Source of the DNA: Christensenellaceae bacterium
Lineage (GTDB): Bacteria; Bacillota; Clostridia; Christensenellales; UBA1242
Reading direction: 5' to 3'
Length of the DNA stretch: 37,091 bases
NCBI GenBank assembly: GCA_031256235.1
Contig: JAIRQZ010000030.1
Span: 1 to 37,091 of the forward strand
A program made the translations under genes and the position numbers. A model generated the notes under the pieces. It was not told where the DNA came from. It saw only the letters and a list, made by a program, of their open reading frames with translations, and did no database searches. This document shows, one piece after another, positions 393 through 19,034 of this stretch (its first letter is position 1; each line of letters begins with the position of its first letter).

Positions 393-692
393 ATGGCACA
401 AGCATTGGCGATTAAAGATATCAAAGCATATGTTACAGAGATAGCCAAAGTCTATGATATAAGGCGTGTTTCATTATTCGGTTCGTACGCGAAGGGCGAG
501 CAAACACAGGAAAGCGATATCGACTTGTTGGTTGATTTCGGCGACAAAGCAACGTACTTGACCGTCTTCGACTTTCAAAATAAGGTTGAGAATAAAATCG
601 GCAAGGACGTAGACGTAATCCCCGCACCAATTCCGCAAGATTCCTTTTTGAAAATTGACAAGGAGGTGCTGTTGTATGAGCGGTCGCGATAG
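393..692 (+). CDS. mntA: MNT-domain nucleotidyltransferase, MntA-like antitoxin
   Basis: GSYAKGEQTQESDIDLLVDFG matches the minimal nucleotidyltransferase motif GSxxxG...DxD; overlaps the downstream HEPN gene. Confidence 0.85.
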   Translation: MAQALAIKDIKAYVTEIAKVYDIRRVSLFGSYAKGEQTQESDIDLLVDFGDKATYLTVFDFQNKVENKIGKDVDVIPAPIPQDSFLKIDKEVLLYERSR

Positions 693-1011
693 AACAATTC
701 TGGAAAAGACATTGAAAGAAATTAACTGCTTGAATACTTTGTTGAAAGGGGTAAAGACATTTGAAGATTTTGACGCAGATGAAAAGACAAAGCGTTCGGT
801 GGTTATGACACTTATAAACGTTGGCGAACTCGTAAAGCATTTGTCGGATGATTTTAAGGAATCCCACAATAATATCCCTTTCCATGCGATAACGGCTTTG
901 CGCAATGTTGCCACACACGGTTATCTTACATTGAACTTCAAAATTATATGGAACACAGTAAATAAAAGTATCCCAGAATTAAAAACTCAAATAGCGGATT
1001 TGCTTAAGTAG
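676..1011 (+). CDS. hepT: HEPN (DUF86) domain, HepT-like toxin
   Basis: HEPN RX4HXY motif intact (RNVATHGY); ATG at 676 preceded by aggagg; overlaps mntA by 17 nt. Confidence 0.85.
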   Translation: MSGRDRTILEKTLKEINCLNTLLKGVKTFEDFDADEKTKRSVVMTLINVGELVKHLSDDFKESHNNIPFHAITALRNVATHGYLTLNFKIIWNTVNKSIPELKTQIADLLK

Positions 1012-1018
1012 AGTAGTG

Positions 1019-1050
1019 CACAAAAAAAGCGGGTCGATTGCCCGCTTTTT
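1019..1050 (-). terminator. Intrinsic terminator (bidirectional) for the minus-strand pilin and hepT
   Basis: AAAAAAAGCGGGTCGATTGCCCGCTTTTT hairpin; perfect inverted copy of 2550-2581. Confidence 0.85.
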
Positions 1051-1064
1051 GAATTCTATTGTGA

Positions 1065-1688
1065 TTAGCGGATTCGTGGAAGAAGAACCCAAGCATTATC
1101 TAAATTATGTTCTCCACTTGCCTTATAACCCGGTAAAGCCGTAATAACCGCAGTCGCAATACTTTGTATTGCAACAACTGCAACAATGCCTACAGCAGTA
1201 TAAATAAGTTGGGTCTTGGCTTGTTTGCGCTTTGCGTCATCTTCGGCTTTCATAAGTTGCCAACCGACGTAAACGGCGAATATCGTAGCAGCAGAAGAAA
1301 GAATTTTAAGCACACAACCGACAACAGTGTTTATAATGGTAAGAACACTGTTCGCGGTAGTTAATGTACTATCCATATCTGCTGTGACACCATCTGGACG
1401 ATTAATTTGCTTTGGGGCTTTATAGCCACCCAATACTGTAGTAAATAGCGTTATCATAACCGTAATACCTACTAGGCCAACAATAGAATAGATAAGTTGG
1501 CTTTTTGCTTGTGCGCGTTTTGCATCATCAGTTGCCTTTGCAAAATTGAAACCAACCCAAATAGCGAAAAAGACAATCATAGAAGCGCATATAGCCAAAA
1601 ACACAGCAGTCGCAATGTCTACCGCACCCCCCACCGTCTTCAGCACTTCTTGAGTTCTATCCGCTCCCATCAAACTAAACAACTTCAT
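1065..1688 (-). CDS. T4SS pilin-like (VirB2/TrbC-like) membrane protein with internally duplicated domain, copy 1
   Basis: MKLFSLMGADRTQ...; two repeats of TM-[K.DDAKR.QAK.QLIY]-TM; start set at the ATG 1688 after aaaggagg rather than the ORF-track start at 1712. Confidence 0.7.
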   Translation of the reverse strand: MKLFSLMGADRTQEVLKTVGGAVDIATAVFLAICASMIVFFAIWVGFNFAKATDDAKRAQAKSQLIYSIVGLVGITVMITLFTTVLGGYKAPKQINRPDGVTADMDSTLTTANSVLTIINTVVGCVLKILSSAATIFAVYVGWQLMKAEDDAKRKQAKTQLIYTAVGIVAVVAIQSIATAVITALPGYKASGEHNLDNAWVLLPRIR

Positions 1689-1747
1689 AATTTTTCCTCC
1701 TTTGTTTTCCAACTGTTCGCAAAATATATATTTTGGCGAAGTGTTGA
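1669..1747 (-). repeat. Left arm of perfect 79-bp inverted repeat
   Basis: Reverse complement is TCAACACTTCGCCAAAATATATATTTTGCGAACAGTTGGAAAACAAAGGAGGAAAAATTATGAAGTTGTTTAGTTTGAT, identical to 1857-1935. Confidence 0.97.
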
Positions 1748-1856
1748 CGATACAATGATAAGTATCTGCACTATTTTTACCTCTTATTCATGGGTTTGTC
1801 AACGGATTTTTCAACTTTTTTCAAAAAACTTTCGACAAAATGGGCGTTTTAGGGGT
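1748..1856. other. Candidate invertible promoter segment between inverted repeats
   Basis: 109 bp, no coding potential, carries a directional promoter, flanked by perfect 79-bp inverted repeats leading into two divergent pilin genes. Confidence 0.6.
1774..1802 (-). promoter_or_regulatory. Putative sigma-A promoter reading toward the minus-strand pilin (TTGACA-17-TAAAAA)
   Basis: -35 TTGACA at 1802..1797 and -10 TAAAAA at 1779..1774; the -35/spacer resembles the promoter at 32994 (TTGACAAACaCgTGAATAgcAGG). Confidence 0.6.
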
Positions 1857-1935
1857 TCAACACTTCGCCAAAATATATATTTTGCGAACAGTTGGAAAAC
1901 AAAGGAGGAAAAATTATGAAGTTGTTTAGTTTGAT
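1857..1935 (+). repeat. Right arm of perfect 79-bp inverted repeat
   Basis: See left arm; contains RBS aaaggagg and the first codons of the plus pilin. Confidence 0.97.
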
Positions 1936-2530
1936 TGGAGCAAGTGTGGCAGACTTGGGAAAAGACGACCCAGTAGTTAGGACCATGAACACAATCGGTA
2001 ACGCTGTTGATATTGCGGTTGTTGTATTCATGGCAATTTGTGCATCGTTAATTGTGTTTTATGCCATTTGGGTCGGTTTCAATTTTGCGAAAGCCACCGA
2101 TGATGCAAAGCGTGCTCAAGCAAAAAGCCAGTTAATCTACTCGATTATCGGTTTAGTTGGTATTACGGTTATATCTACGCTGTTTGGAACAGTGCTTAAA
2201 TCATATACAAAGATTTCGGCTATTACGCCAGATGGTGCGACCGATTTCAACGATACTGTTGTAGCGGCAACAAAGGTCTTAGCGATAGTCAACACGATTT
2301 CATCGGTCGTGCTGAAAACACTTACATCCGCAGCAACCATATTCGCGGTTTGGGTTGGATGGCAACTTATGAAAGCCGAAGATGATGCCAAGCGTAAGCA
2401 AGCCAAGACACAACTTATCTATACTGCTATCGGTATAGTTGTGATAGTTGCTATCCAGGCTATTGCTGGTGCTATATTTACTGGTGCGATTGGTTCAAAA
2501 ATTAATAGTGCCTCGCGAGATTGGGAATAA
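1916..2530 (+). CDS. T4SS pilin-like membrane protein with internally duplicated domain, copy 2
   Basis: MKLFSLIGASVADLG...; same duplicated TM-loop-TM layout as copy 1; RBS aaaggagg upstream of ATG 1916. Confidence 0.7.
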   Translation: MKLFSLIGASVADLGKDDPVVRTMNTIGNAVDIAVVVFMAICASLIVFYAIWVGFNFAKATDDAKRAQAKSQLIYSIIGLVGITVISTLFGTVLKSYTKISAITPDGATDFNDTVVAATKVLAIVNTISSVVLKTLTSAATIFAVWVGWQLMKAEDDAKRKQAKTQLIYTAIGIVVIVAIQAIAGAIFTGAIGSKINSASRDWE

Positions 2531-2549: not shown

Positions 2550-2581
2550 AAAAAGCGGGCAATCGACCCGCTTTTTTTGTG
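2550..2581 (+). terminator. Intrinsic terminator after pilin copy 2
   Basis: AAAAAGCGGGCAATCGACCCGCTTTTTTTGTG; perfect inverted copy of 1019-1050. Confidence 0.88.
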
Positions 2582-2618: not shown

Positions 2619-2624
2619 ATGTAC

Positions 2625-3179
2625 GTGAATAGTTTATTCAGTTTATTGAATGCAGGCGACGGTTCGAAAAAAGTAAAAGATGTACTTACAAGTATAAAAG
2701 GTGCGACAGGTATTATGACCACCGTGGTTCTTGCCGTATGCGCTTCGGCTGTTATCTTTTATGCTATATATATCGGTGTTCGTTTGGCGTCCGCGACCGA
2801 TGACGGCAAACGCACCCAGGCCAAACAACAATTGATTTGGTCGGTTGTGGCATTATTAAGTATCGGTGTGCTTACAACGATATACACATTGGTGTTGGAT
2901 AAAACTCTAGTAAACATTAATTTTAGTGGGGCGGGCCCTACCGATGATTTAATCAAGGACGAGCTTGTTATTATAAAAGATTCTGTTAAGATTGTTATGG
3001 ATATTTGTATTGCTGCTTTACCTGCTTTTGCGCTTTGGGTTTGTTGGCAACTTATGAAGGCCGAGGACGAAGGCAAACGCAAAAATGCGAAGATGCAACT
3101 TTTGTATACAATAATCGGGGCGGTGGCTGTTGTTGGATTGTATAGTCTTTGCGACGCCGTGTTCTCGAATATGAAATGA
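2625..3179 (+). CDS. T4SS pilin-like membrane protein with internally duplicated domain, copy 3
   Basis: MNSLFSLLNAGDG...; repeats ASATDDGKRTQAKQQLIW and MKAEDEGKRKNAKMQLLY between TM helices. Start at GTG 2625 or ATG 2619. Confidence 0.65.
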   Translation: MNSLFSLLNAGDGSKKVKDVLTSIKGATGIMTTVVLAVCASAVIFYAIYIGVRLASATDDGKRTQAKQQLIWSVVALLSIGVLTTIYTLVLDKTLVNINFSGAGPTDDLIKDELVIIKDSVKIVMDICIAALPAFALWVCWQLMKAEDEGKRKNAKMQLLYTIIGAVAVVGLYSLCDAVFSNMK

Positions 3180-4244: not shown

Positions 4245-4927
4245 GCGAAGTAAAAACCGCAACCCAAGCGAAGAAACCTGCGTCCATTAAAATCGACGTA
4301 CTTGACCAAAAGGGCAAAGTCGCCGAACAAATGACCTTGAACTCCGAAGTCTTTGGCGTTGATGTTAACACGTATTTGATTCATGCCGTTGCGACAGCCC
4401 AAGCCAACAACGCACGTCAAGGTACAAAGAAAACCCTTGACCGTGCCGAGGTTCGCGGACATGGCAAAAAGCCTTACAAACAAAAAGGCACGGGTAACGC
4501 TCGTCAAGGTTCGACCAAAGGCCCGCAATTTGACGGCGGTGGTATGGCTTTCGCTATTGAACCTCGCGACTTTTCAACCAAAATTAACAAAAAACAACGC
4601 GCTGCGGCTTTCGTTTCCGCAATCAGTGGCAAATTAAACGACAAAGAACTTATCGTTTTACAAGACCTTAAAGTAAAAGACCACAAGACAAAAAATGTTG
4701 CAGATATCTTGAAGTCGCTTGTAAAGGCAAAACTTGGTATAACGGATAAAAGCAAAATTTTGTTCGTAAAGAACGGTTACGATATTGATTTTATTCATGC
4801 GTGCGAGAATATTCCGAATATCGAAACAATTACTGCTGCACAACTTTCTGTTCTTGATATTGTCACTCACAAATTTCTGGTGGCAACATCTTATGCCATA
4901 AAAGCAATCGAGGAGGCATACGCATGA
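4241..4927 (+). CDS. rplD: 50S ribosomal protein L4
   Basis: ARQGTKKTLDRAEVRGHGKKPYKQKGTGNARQGS; 4-nt overlap with rplC. Confidence 0.97.
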   Translation: MSEVKTATQAKKPASIKIDVLDQKGKVAEQMTLNSEVFGVDVNTYLIHAVATAQANNARQGTKKTLDRAEVRGHGKKPYKQKGTGNARQGSTKGPQFDGGGMAFAIEPRDFSTKINKKQRAAAFVSAISGKLNDKELIVLQDLKVKDHKTKNVADILKSLVKAKLGITDKSKILFVKNGYDIDFIHACENIPNIETITAAQLSVLDIVTHKFLVATSYAIKAIEEAYA

Positions 4928-17489: not shown

Positions 17490-19034
17490 ATGGAAACAGT
17501 ACACGGCAAATACGAACAAAAGAGTCTTGTCACCGTCGCGAACACGCAAACTCGCGTTCCTGTGAAGATGGAACTTGCAAATCCGGCCAAAAAAATCTTG
17601 ACCACAACTGCAAAGTGCTTTGTAACCGGAGTCGAGCGCAAAGACGCCGACATACGCGTCAATGGCAAAACGGTCACGCAGGTGATTTTTATCGACGAGT
17701 TTGGAGCCTATAACAGCGAAGAACGCGCCGACGAATTCTCGGAAAGATTCACACCTAAAAATGCCGAAACGATTCAAATCGTATCTCCGATGGCGGTAAT
17801 CATACAAACCGTCGCACCAAAGTTGCAAAAAGGCGAAACCGACCTTATTGCTGGGCTTTCAACCGAACACGTAATCAATATCGCGCTTACAGGCCTTAAG
17901 GGTAACGAAATCTCTTATGTTCGGGAACTTTCTGGCGACGTTGAATCCGTCGGGACACAAACTTCGGTTGCCTCTTGGGGTGCCACTTTTTTTGAAAAGT
18001 TCGATATAGGTGAAACTTTAACCCTTGATTCAAACGTCGAAGGCATACTTTGCACCGACCTTTCCGTACATATCCGCGACATAAATGTGGCCAACGAACG
18101 CTTTACAATCAAAGGCGTAGCAAGTGTAAATGCCTCGGTCGTGCGTAATGTCGAGGGCGCCCAAAGCGTGGCAACCGCACAATACGATTTTGATTTTGCA
18201 AAATCATTCAATAAAAAAGACGTCACAGACCGCGACATCATTTGTGGTAATGTCCTTGTGTCCAACGTCGGAATCAAGGTCGAAAGCCTTGCACACCCAT
18301 CGCTTACCGTCGAGGCTGAACTTATTTTCACAGGTCATTCTATTGTTCGCCACGAAATTAACATGATAAAAGACGCATTCAGTTGCGATAACAACCTTGA
18401 CTTTACCCATACCACCGTGAACGATGTAGCCATAACAGGCTCGCAACAAAACATCGTCGCCGATGTAGAAGGCAATGTATCAATGCCCGAAGGCTCGCCT
18501 TTTATCGGCAAAGTATTGCTTGCAAGCATGCCGATTATCGGTAGCATCAATGTCAAACCCACCGACGATAAGACTATTGTCGAGGGCGTATTGACCACCA
18601 ACATTATTTACGAGTGCGAGGAGCATCATGTTTATTCCCACGTTGCTGAAGTACCTTTTGCCGTGACTTGCAAGATTGACAACTGTACAGCCAAGCACAA
18701 CATCAACGTCGCTTTGACCCCTCTTTCATGCAATGTCAAGGCTAGGCGAGGTAAAGAACTTCTTGTTGACGCACGCCTTGGTGCCAATGTGGTAGCAAGT
18801 TCTAACAACAGCGTCAAAGTCGCATCCAATGTTCAAATTGGCAAAGCAAGACCCGCCGAAGACCACGCAATCACGATTCACATCGCTGATGCCAAAGAAA
18901 CCCTTTGGGACATCGCAAAACGTGCAAGCATTCCAACCGCAGAAGTTATCCGCCAAAACCCAAGCGTAGCAAATGGCATAAACGAGGGAGACCGCATCGT
19001 AATGTACCGCCGTGCGCGAGCCATATCTCAATGA
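17490..19034 (+). CDS. sipL: DUF3794 (SPOCS) repeat + C-terminal LysM protein, SipL-like spore coat/cortex morphogenetic protein
   Basis: Repeated DUF3794-like segments; C-terminal LysM (ITIHIADAKETLWDIAKRASIPTAEVIRQNPSVANGINEGDRIVMYR). Confidence 0.75.
   Translation: METVHGKYEQKSLVTVANTQTRVPVKMELANPAKKILTTTAKCFVTGVERKDADIRVNGKTVTQVIFIDEFGAYNSEERADEFSERFTPKNAETIQIVSPMAVIIQTVAPKLQKGETDLIAGLSTEHVINIALTGLKGNEISYVRELSGDVESVGTQTSVASWGATFFEKFDIGETLTLDSNVEGILCTDLSVHIRDINVANERFTIKGVASVNASVVRNVEGAQSVATAQYDFDFAKSFNKKDVTDRDIICGNVLVSNVGIKVESLAHPSLTVEAELIFTGHSIVRHEINMIKDAFSCDNNLDFTHTTVNDVAITGSQQNIVADVEGNVSMPEGSPFIGKVLLASMPIIGSINVKPTDDKTIVEGVLTTNIIYECEEHHVYSHVAEVPFAVTCKIDNCTAKHNINVALTPLSCNVKARRGKELLVDARLGANVVASSNNSVKVASNVQIGKARPAEDHAITIHIADAKETLWDIAKRASIPTAEVIRQNPSVANGINEGDRIVMYRRARAISQ

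Follow-up and report, generated by a model that had tools for sequence, protein, structure and literature searches.

Divergent type IV secretion system pilin genes share an inverted leader repeat around a candidate invertible promoter segment

A 37,091-nucleotide stretch of DNA from a Christensenellaceae bacterium (GenBank assembly GCA_031256235.1, contig JAIRQZ010000030.1; the whole stretch is referred to as the window) carries two divergent pilin genes of a type IV secretion system (T4SS), here A and B, whose start regions form a long inverted repeat around a short non-coding centre. The genome, of which the window is contig C17, comprises 822 kb in 54 contigs at 90% completeness and is labelled G000 in our comparison of a small-genome Clostridia family. 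Recombination between the leader repeats is strongly supported by sequence comparison, because identical arms lie on genes whose bodies are saturated, the leaders of relatives evolve in concert, and an inversion is visible in another genus of the family. It is plausible that the 109-bp centre is an invertible promoter segment that toggles the two genes.

The perfect 79-bp inverted repeat that the original prediction placed at 1669–1747 and 1857–1935 is present as described, with perfectly complementary arms around the non-coding centre; with one mismatch allowed it extends to 85 bp (84/85 identical, with the same 109-bp spacer), and the chance expectation for such a repeat in the window is ~1e-39. 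Each arm includes the ribosome-binding site (RBS), the ATG and the first 8–9 codons, and flipping 1748–1856 changes neither open reading frame (ORF), also as predicted. Identity does stop abruptly, but at codon 8–9 rather than near codon 7, which bears only the single mismatch. The leader repeat was thus well described, but the inverted paralogy of the two genes and their inverted terminators had been overlooked; the terminators form a second perfect inverted repeat (32/32 bp), 1.5 kb apart, and with just two copies in the genome the terminator is not a genome-wide repeat. We found no further copy of the leader arms in the 822-kb genome and no match to them in the other genome of the genus (n = 2). 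The near-palindrome TCAACACTTCGCCAAAATATATATTTTGCGAACAGTTGG is present in each arm, and a single strand of the leader repeat can fold into a hairpin with a stem of ~85 bp (z −19.6). Rfam matches on the arms, to miRNA hairpins, are below gathering scores and merely reflect the long palindrome. The features of the locus are listed in Table 1.

Table 1. Positions of the pilin genes, repeats and candidate regulatory elements in the window.
Feature	Position	Strand	Description
Pilin gene A	1065..1688	(-)	MKLFSLMGA..., 207 amino acids, T4SS_pilin PF18895
Pilin gene B	1916..2530	(+)	MKLFSLIGA..., 204 amino acids, PF18895, inverted paralogue of A, 67% amino acid identity
Third pilin gene	2619..3179	(+)	Tandem to B, without leader arm, PF18895
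Left leader arm	1663..1747	(-)	5' leader, RBS, start and first codons of A; 79 bp perfect from 1669
Right leader arm	1857..1941	(+)	Inverted copy, start of gene B
Centre, candidate invertible segment	1748..1856	.	109 bp
Candidate promoter TTGACA-17-TAAAAA toward A	1774..1802	(-)	10/12 match; not significant alone; geometry shared with G112 and G122
Dyad TTCGCCAAAATATATATTTTGCGAA in left arm	1716..1740	(-)	Similar dyad in G112 arms
Same dyad in right arm	1864..1888	(+)	Similar dyad in G112 arms
Terminator of gene A	1019..1050	(-)	Perfect inverted copy of 2550-2581
Terminator of gene B	2550..2581	(+)	Perfect inverted copy of 1019-1050

The predicted pilin identity of the genes is borne out by profile matches above cut-offs. 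The three pilins score 56.5, 59.0 and 44.5 bits with PF18895 (curated cut-off 26.6), and A and B score 73.7 and 74.3 with NF045849 (pilin-like conjugal transfer protein; cut-off 40). A and B differ widely outside the leaders (60–74% nucleotide identity, ~2.0 synonymous substitutions per site [dS], ratio of nonsynonymous to synonymous rates [dN/dS] ~0.14) and their coding bodies are saturated; the best explanation is that a pilin gene belonging to the family's chromosomal T4SS was duplicated in inverted orientation long ago. Since both genes are intact and dN/dS is ~0.14, both appear to be in use, and this conserved function fits alternation as well as co-expression. Had the arms diverged like the bodies, the probability of 84/85 identity would be ~1e-10 to 1e-17. 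Because leaders and terminators are identical while the bodies are saturated, something homogenises them, and the leader arms recombine either by conversion or by inversion.

We inspected ~130 pilin loci across the family, in which 175 of the 197 genomes searched have a pilin, and the leader-repeat anatomy recurs in other genera, in divergent pairs in genomes G112 and G122 and in convergent pairs in G123, G300 and G034. In G112, which belongs to another genus and has a different sequence, divergent pilins share 94-nt arms that span both start codons (93% identity) around a 131-bp centre at 4622–4752 of L088, the terminators form a 26-bp perfect inverted repeat, and the arms bear a dyad, TTCGCAAAATAAAATATTAGCGAA, similar to that in the window. 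The G122 pair has ~80-nt arms and a 123-bp centre at 79–201 of L091. Two G122 contigs, C9 and C13, both begin at a pilin leader arm (loci L090, 1–96, and L091, 1–280), as is expected at an unresolved repeat, and C9 holds an extra copy that matches the right arm of C13 exactly. Leaders are shared in 3/11 inverted pilin pairs (matches of at least 50 bp) and in 0/46 tandem pairs (none above 15 bp; Fisher p 0.006). Inverted repeats near the pilins of G001, G143 and G270 were considered as pilin leaders and rejected because they look like hairpin-rich or dispersed repeats; one of these, in the genus mate G001, is an 82-bp, 99% identical, hairpin-rich repeat around the middle pilin (L033, 2050–2130 and 2965–3046). 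An inverted repeat near a pilin is also seen in G083.

Comparison within one genus, designated g34, provides an observed inversion. The pilin pair of this genus is convergent, with 70-bp perfect leader repeats 885 bp apart in G123; the inverted leader is kept in G300 (39 bp, 100%) and G034 (103 bp, 96%), while the second gene is lost in G300, leaving only the arm, and is a 14-codon stub in G034. Over 75 nt, the two leaders within a genome are 96% identical in G123, 95% in G034 and only 72% in G224, and leaders compared between genomes or species are mostly 55–89% identical, with one pair at 99%; on these identities, the pattern is one of concerted evolution of the leaders in genomes that retain the repeat. 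The g34 leaders (L089, L106, L188) begin with CATAAG and end with CTTATG, with a fast-evolving purine-rich stretch between; base pairing within the transcript could extend across the start codon. The G224 locus is bounded by the left flank and the tRNA-Ser that also border it in G123, G300 and G034, and the flanks are collinear, but its interior is inverted relative to the other three: the GACCC..GGGTC terminator and the GCGCGCCTTCCTA landmark are on the right-hand gene, in the opposite direction. The G224 arrangement looks derived, because the terminator lies on the left gene in G082 and G034 as in G123. The right gene of G224 is chimeric, with a B-type N-terminus and an A-type C-terminus, so the crossover fell within the conserved coding core, and one of the two genes is frameshifted. 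Because the interior of G224 is flipped, the inverted pilin pairs of the family do invert, apparently by ordinary homologous recombination. The original prediction proposed comparing related genomes for the inverted state; rearranged or chimeric pilins were seen in g34, in a convergent pair, and not in the window's own genus. Judging from the decay of right-hand copies (stub, loss, frameshift), expression in g34 may be confined to the left position.

The original prediction also noted a promoter, TTGACA-17-TAAAAA (1802..1774), facing the minus-strand gene. The sequence is there, but it is a weaker candidate than implied, a 10/12 match of which ~6 are expected by chance per 2.3 kb. All promoter p values given here derive from mononucleotide shuffles and an approximate, hand-set position weight matrix (PWM). 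A TTGACA-17-TAAnAn element faces the same side in G000, in G112 (TTGACA-17-TAAATA) and in G122 (TTGACA-17-TAATAT, p ~0.01), and the G000 and G112 centres align around TTGACA in like orientation (p ~0.003).

We propose, with middling confidence, that homologous recombination of the pilin leaders flips the promoter segment and toggles A and B. The identical leaders of the two genes (5' untranslated region, RBS and first codons) would serve as the inverted repeat; recombination would keep both leaders identical, and a crossover between them would flip the 109-bp centre. The centre would hold an outward promoter, facing gene A in the assembled orientation, such that each flip would exchange which pilin is transcribed with both ORFs untouched. 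Inversion of the centre in this organism, its role as the sole source of an effective promoter and the resulting pilin switch are inferred. Several observations weigh against this proposal. Just one orientation of the centre is seen in this single assembly, and gene conversion without inversion would also preserve arm identity. The contrast between tandem and inverted pairs should be read with caution since it cannot by itself separate inversion from conversion: in tandem, leaders of identical sequence would disappear through deletion. The inversion observed in g34 is of a convergent pair with a crossover in the coding region, not of a divergent leader pair. Taken alone, the promoter falls short of significance (PWM p ~0.12), a -10-like TATATT lies in each arm, 34 nt from the ATG, such that both genes could have fixed promoters, and G112 scores higher toward its plus-strand gene (TTGGCC-17-TAAAAT), giving candidates both ways.

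As for what would drive the flip, the locus has inverted repeats around an intergenic segment, as do invertons, but the usual inverton repeats are 10–40 nt (PMC11892184) and those of the window are 79 bp perfect and 85 bp at 99%. It also has features expected of pilin variation by homologous recombination, with paralogues that are near-identical over long segments yet diverged in their bodies, and rearranged or chimeric pilins in relatives, as in G224. No dedicated invertase was found near the locus or elsewhere in the 90%-complete genome, where DEDD/Piv-type enzymes were not searched for. The recombinases found are one Xer-like tyrosine recombinase (contig C38) and one large serine recombinase (C47), neither near the locus, and the Xer-like protein scores under all NCBIfam cut-offs, DNA-invertase ones included. 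The arm lengths, the lack of a nearby invertase and the extension of identity well past the dyad point to homologous recombination as the simplest driver, rather than a fimS/Mpi-type site-specific switch, and we do not claim the locus as a member of the site-specific inverton family.

An alternative explanation, which we consider possible although on balance unlikely, is that both genes have fixed divergent promoters and evolve in concert. Each arm would carry its own -10 (TATATT in the dyad) and a shared operator (TTCGC...GCGAA), the pilins would be co-expressed, conversion and selection for co-regulation would maintain the arms, and the centre would switch nothing. This is consistent with conservation of the arm dyad between G000 and G112, with a -10-like element 26–34 nt from the ATG in both, and with the identical terminators, which conversion explains without a switch. 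However, G000 has weak -35 elements beside the in-arm -10, shared leaders are missing from tandem pilin pairs (though deletion may simply remove identical tandem leaders), and inversion demonstrably happens in the family. A site-specific inverton, in which a tyrosine recombinase such as the Xer-like protein acts on the dyads at 1716–1740 and 1864–1888 to flip the centre, strikes us as improbable. The dyad is shaped like a tyrosine-recombinase core, with inverted 9–11-bp arms around TATATA, there is one Xer-like recombinase in the genome, and Mollicutes surface-gene inversions use Xer relatives (PMC3047005). Yet identity continues into the genes for ~55 bp past the dyad, a stretch that would not be homogenised by site-specific exchange, the g34 arms have no dyad, and the want of an invertase near the locus and the low scores of the Xer-like protein also tell against it. 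Nor does the dyad behave as a dif/Xer site: allowing up to 3 mismatches, the G000 genome has no other copy of it, and the family yielded no match to a Firmicutes-type dif. A TTCGC-N12-14-GCGAA pattern had no match in the family members searched; only the mismatch scan bears on G000, because this pattern excludes its 15-base spacing.

Local template switching during replication can correct hairpin-forming quasi-palindromes to perfection, and if it sometimes rewrote one arm from the other, the repeat would be a functionless by-product. The ~85-bp hairpin stem possible on one strand would suit such a process, but identical terminators 1.5 kb apart and leaders 885 bp apart in the convergent G123 pair are hard to explain in this way, and a by-product would not readily be expected to recur over the same leader segment in several genera; we regard this explanation as highly improbable. 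An assembly artefact might be suspected in a contig from a 54-contig, probably metagenome, assembly. The wide divergence of the gene bodies (dS ~2) rules out both a chimera and a very recent inverted duplication, and the pattern recurs across independent assemblies, making either origin a negligible prospect.

The three T4SS_pilin genes sit upstream of the rpsJ/S10 operon. The third has almost no 5' untranslated region behind a TTGCCA-17-TATCCT promoter match and may be leaderless. In the genus mate G001, three tandem pilins lie immediately ahead of a gene for a VirD4-like coupling protein, and the window genome encodes such a protein on contig C9. Related pilins were found in Clostridia assembled from metagenomes, which carry the labels Bacillota, Clostridia or Christensenellaceae, one of them from water-buffalo rumen; the sample codes of others resemble termite or cockroach gut, which we take to be their source. 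No close relatives were found in the viral contigs searched. Between a tRNA-Arg and the pilins, a nucleotidyltransferase (Polbeta/NTP_transf_2) and HepT-like pair (393–1011, plus strand) is a candidate MntA/HepT-type toxin–antitoxin, and a protein with a SipL/SPOCS domain is encoded at 17490–19034 (plus strand) in this small-genome lineage.

Family-wide, we tentatively suggest, at somewhat less than even confidence, that these uncultured small-genome Clostridia maintain T4SS pilins in inverted pairs and that the paired leaders recombine with no invertase devoted to the task, with a promoter flip between two intact pilins in divergent pairs and with gene bodies swapped or shuffled in convergent ones; the result would be pilus variation in a monoderm T4SS. 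Our limited literature search found no report of T4SS pilins undergoing phase or antigenic variation in monoderms. Mirrored pilin pairs that flip could let a cell choose which pilin is made. A genuine switch would suggest that reduced-genome gut symbionts display, through their conserved chromosomal T4SS, a surface filament that varies, perhaps in response to phage, host or partner-cell pressure, and that inversion can be driven by long leader repeats with no invertase of its own.

The locus is a variation on known DNA-inversion switches. Like the invertible promoters of fimS, the Bacteroides capsule loci and C. difficile flg and cwpV, it places a short stretch of non-coding DNA, with an outward promoter candidate, between inverted repeats and beside a surface-structure gene; unlike them, its 79–85-bp arms include the RBS and codons of two paralogues, there is a gene on each side and no recombinase nearby, and the flip is a candidate one. 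Neisseria pilE/pilS, a type IV pilus system, has many silent copies and unidirectional conversion. It resembles the window in that pilin copies, conserved at their ends and variable in their bodies, undergo homologous exchange, and the decaying second copies of g34 (G034 stub, G300 arm, G224 frameshift) can be likened to it, whereas the window has a T4SS pilin pair in inverted orientation. The VirB2-like pilin arrays of Patescibacteria T4SS are similar in having several divergent pilin genes per genome, with PF18895 among the profiles used, although inverted leader repeats are not mentioned for them in the portions of that report consulted (PMC12102498). In the Mycoplasma and Ureaplasma inversions (mba/UU172, vsa, vsp), inverted surface-protein genes likewise have common 5' sequences, and inversion joins the other body to one promoter and can yield chimeric genes, as in G224 relative to G123; gene bodies move there, through an exchange considered to be of Xer type and to act at short sites, whereas in the window the genes stay in place and only the centre would flip (PMC3047005).
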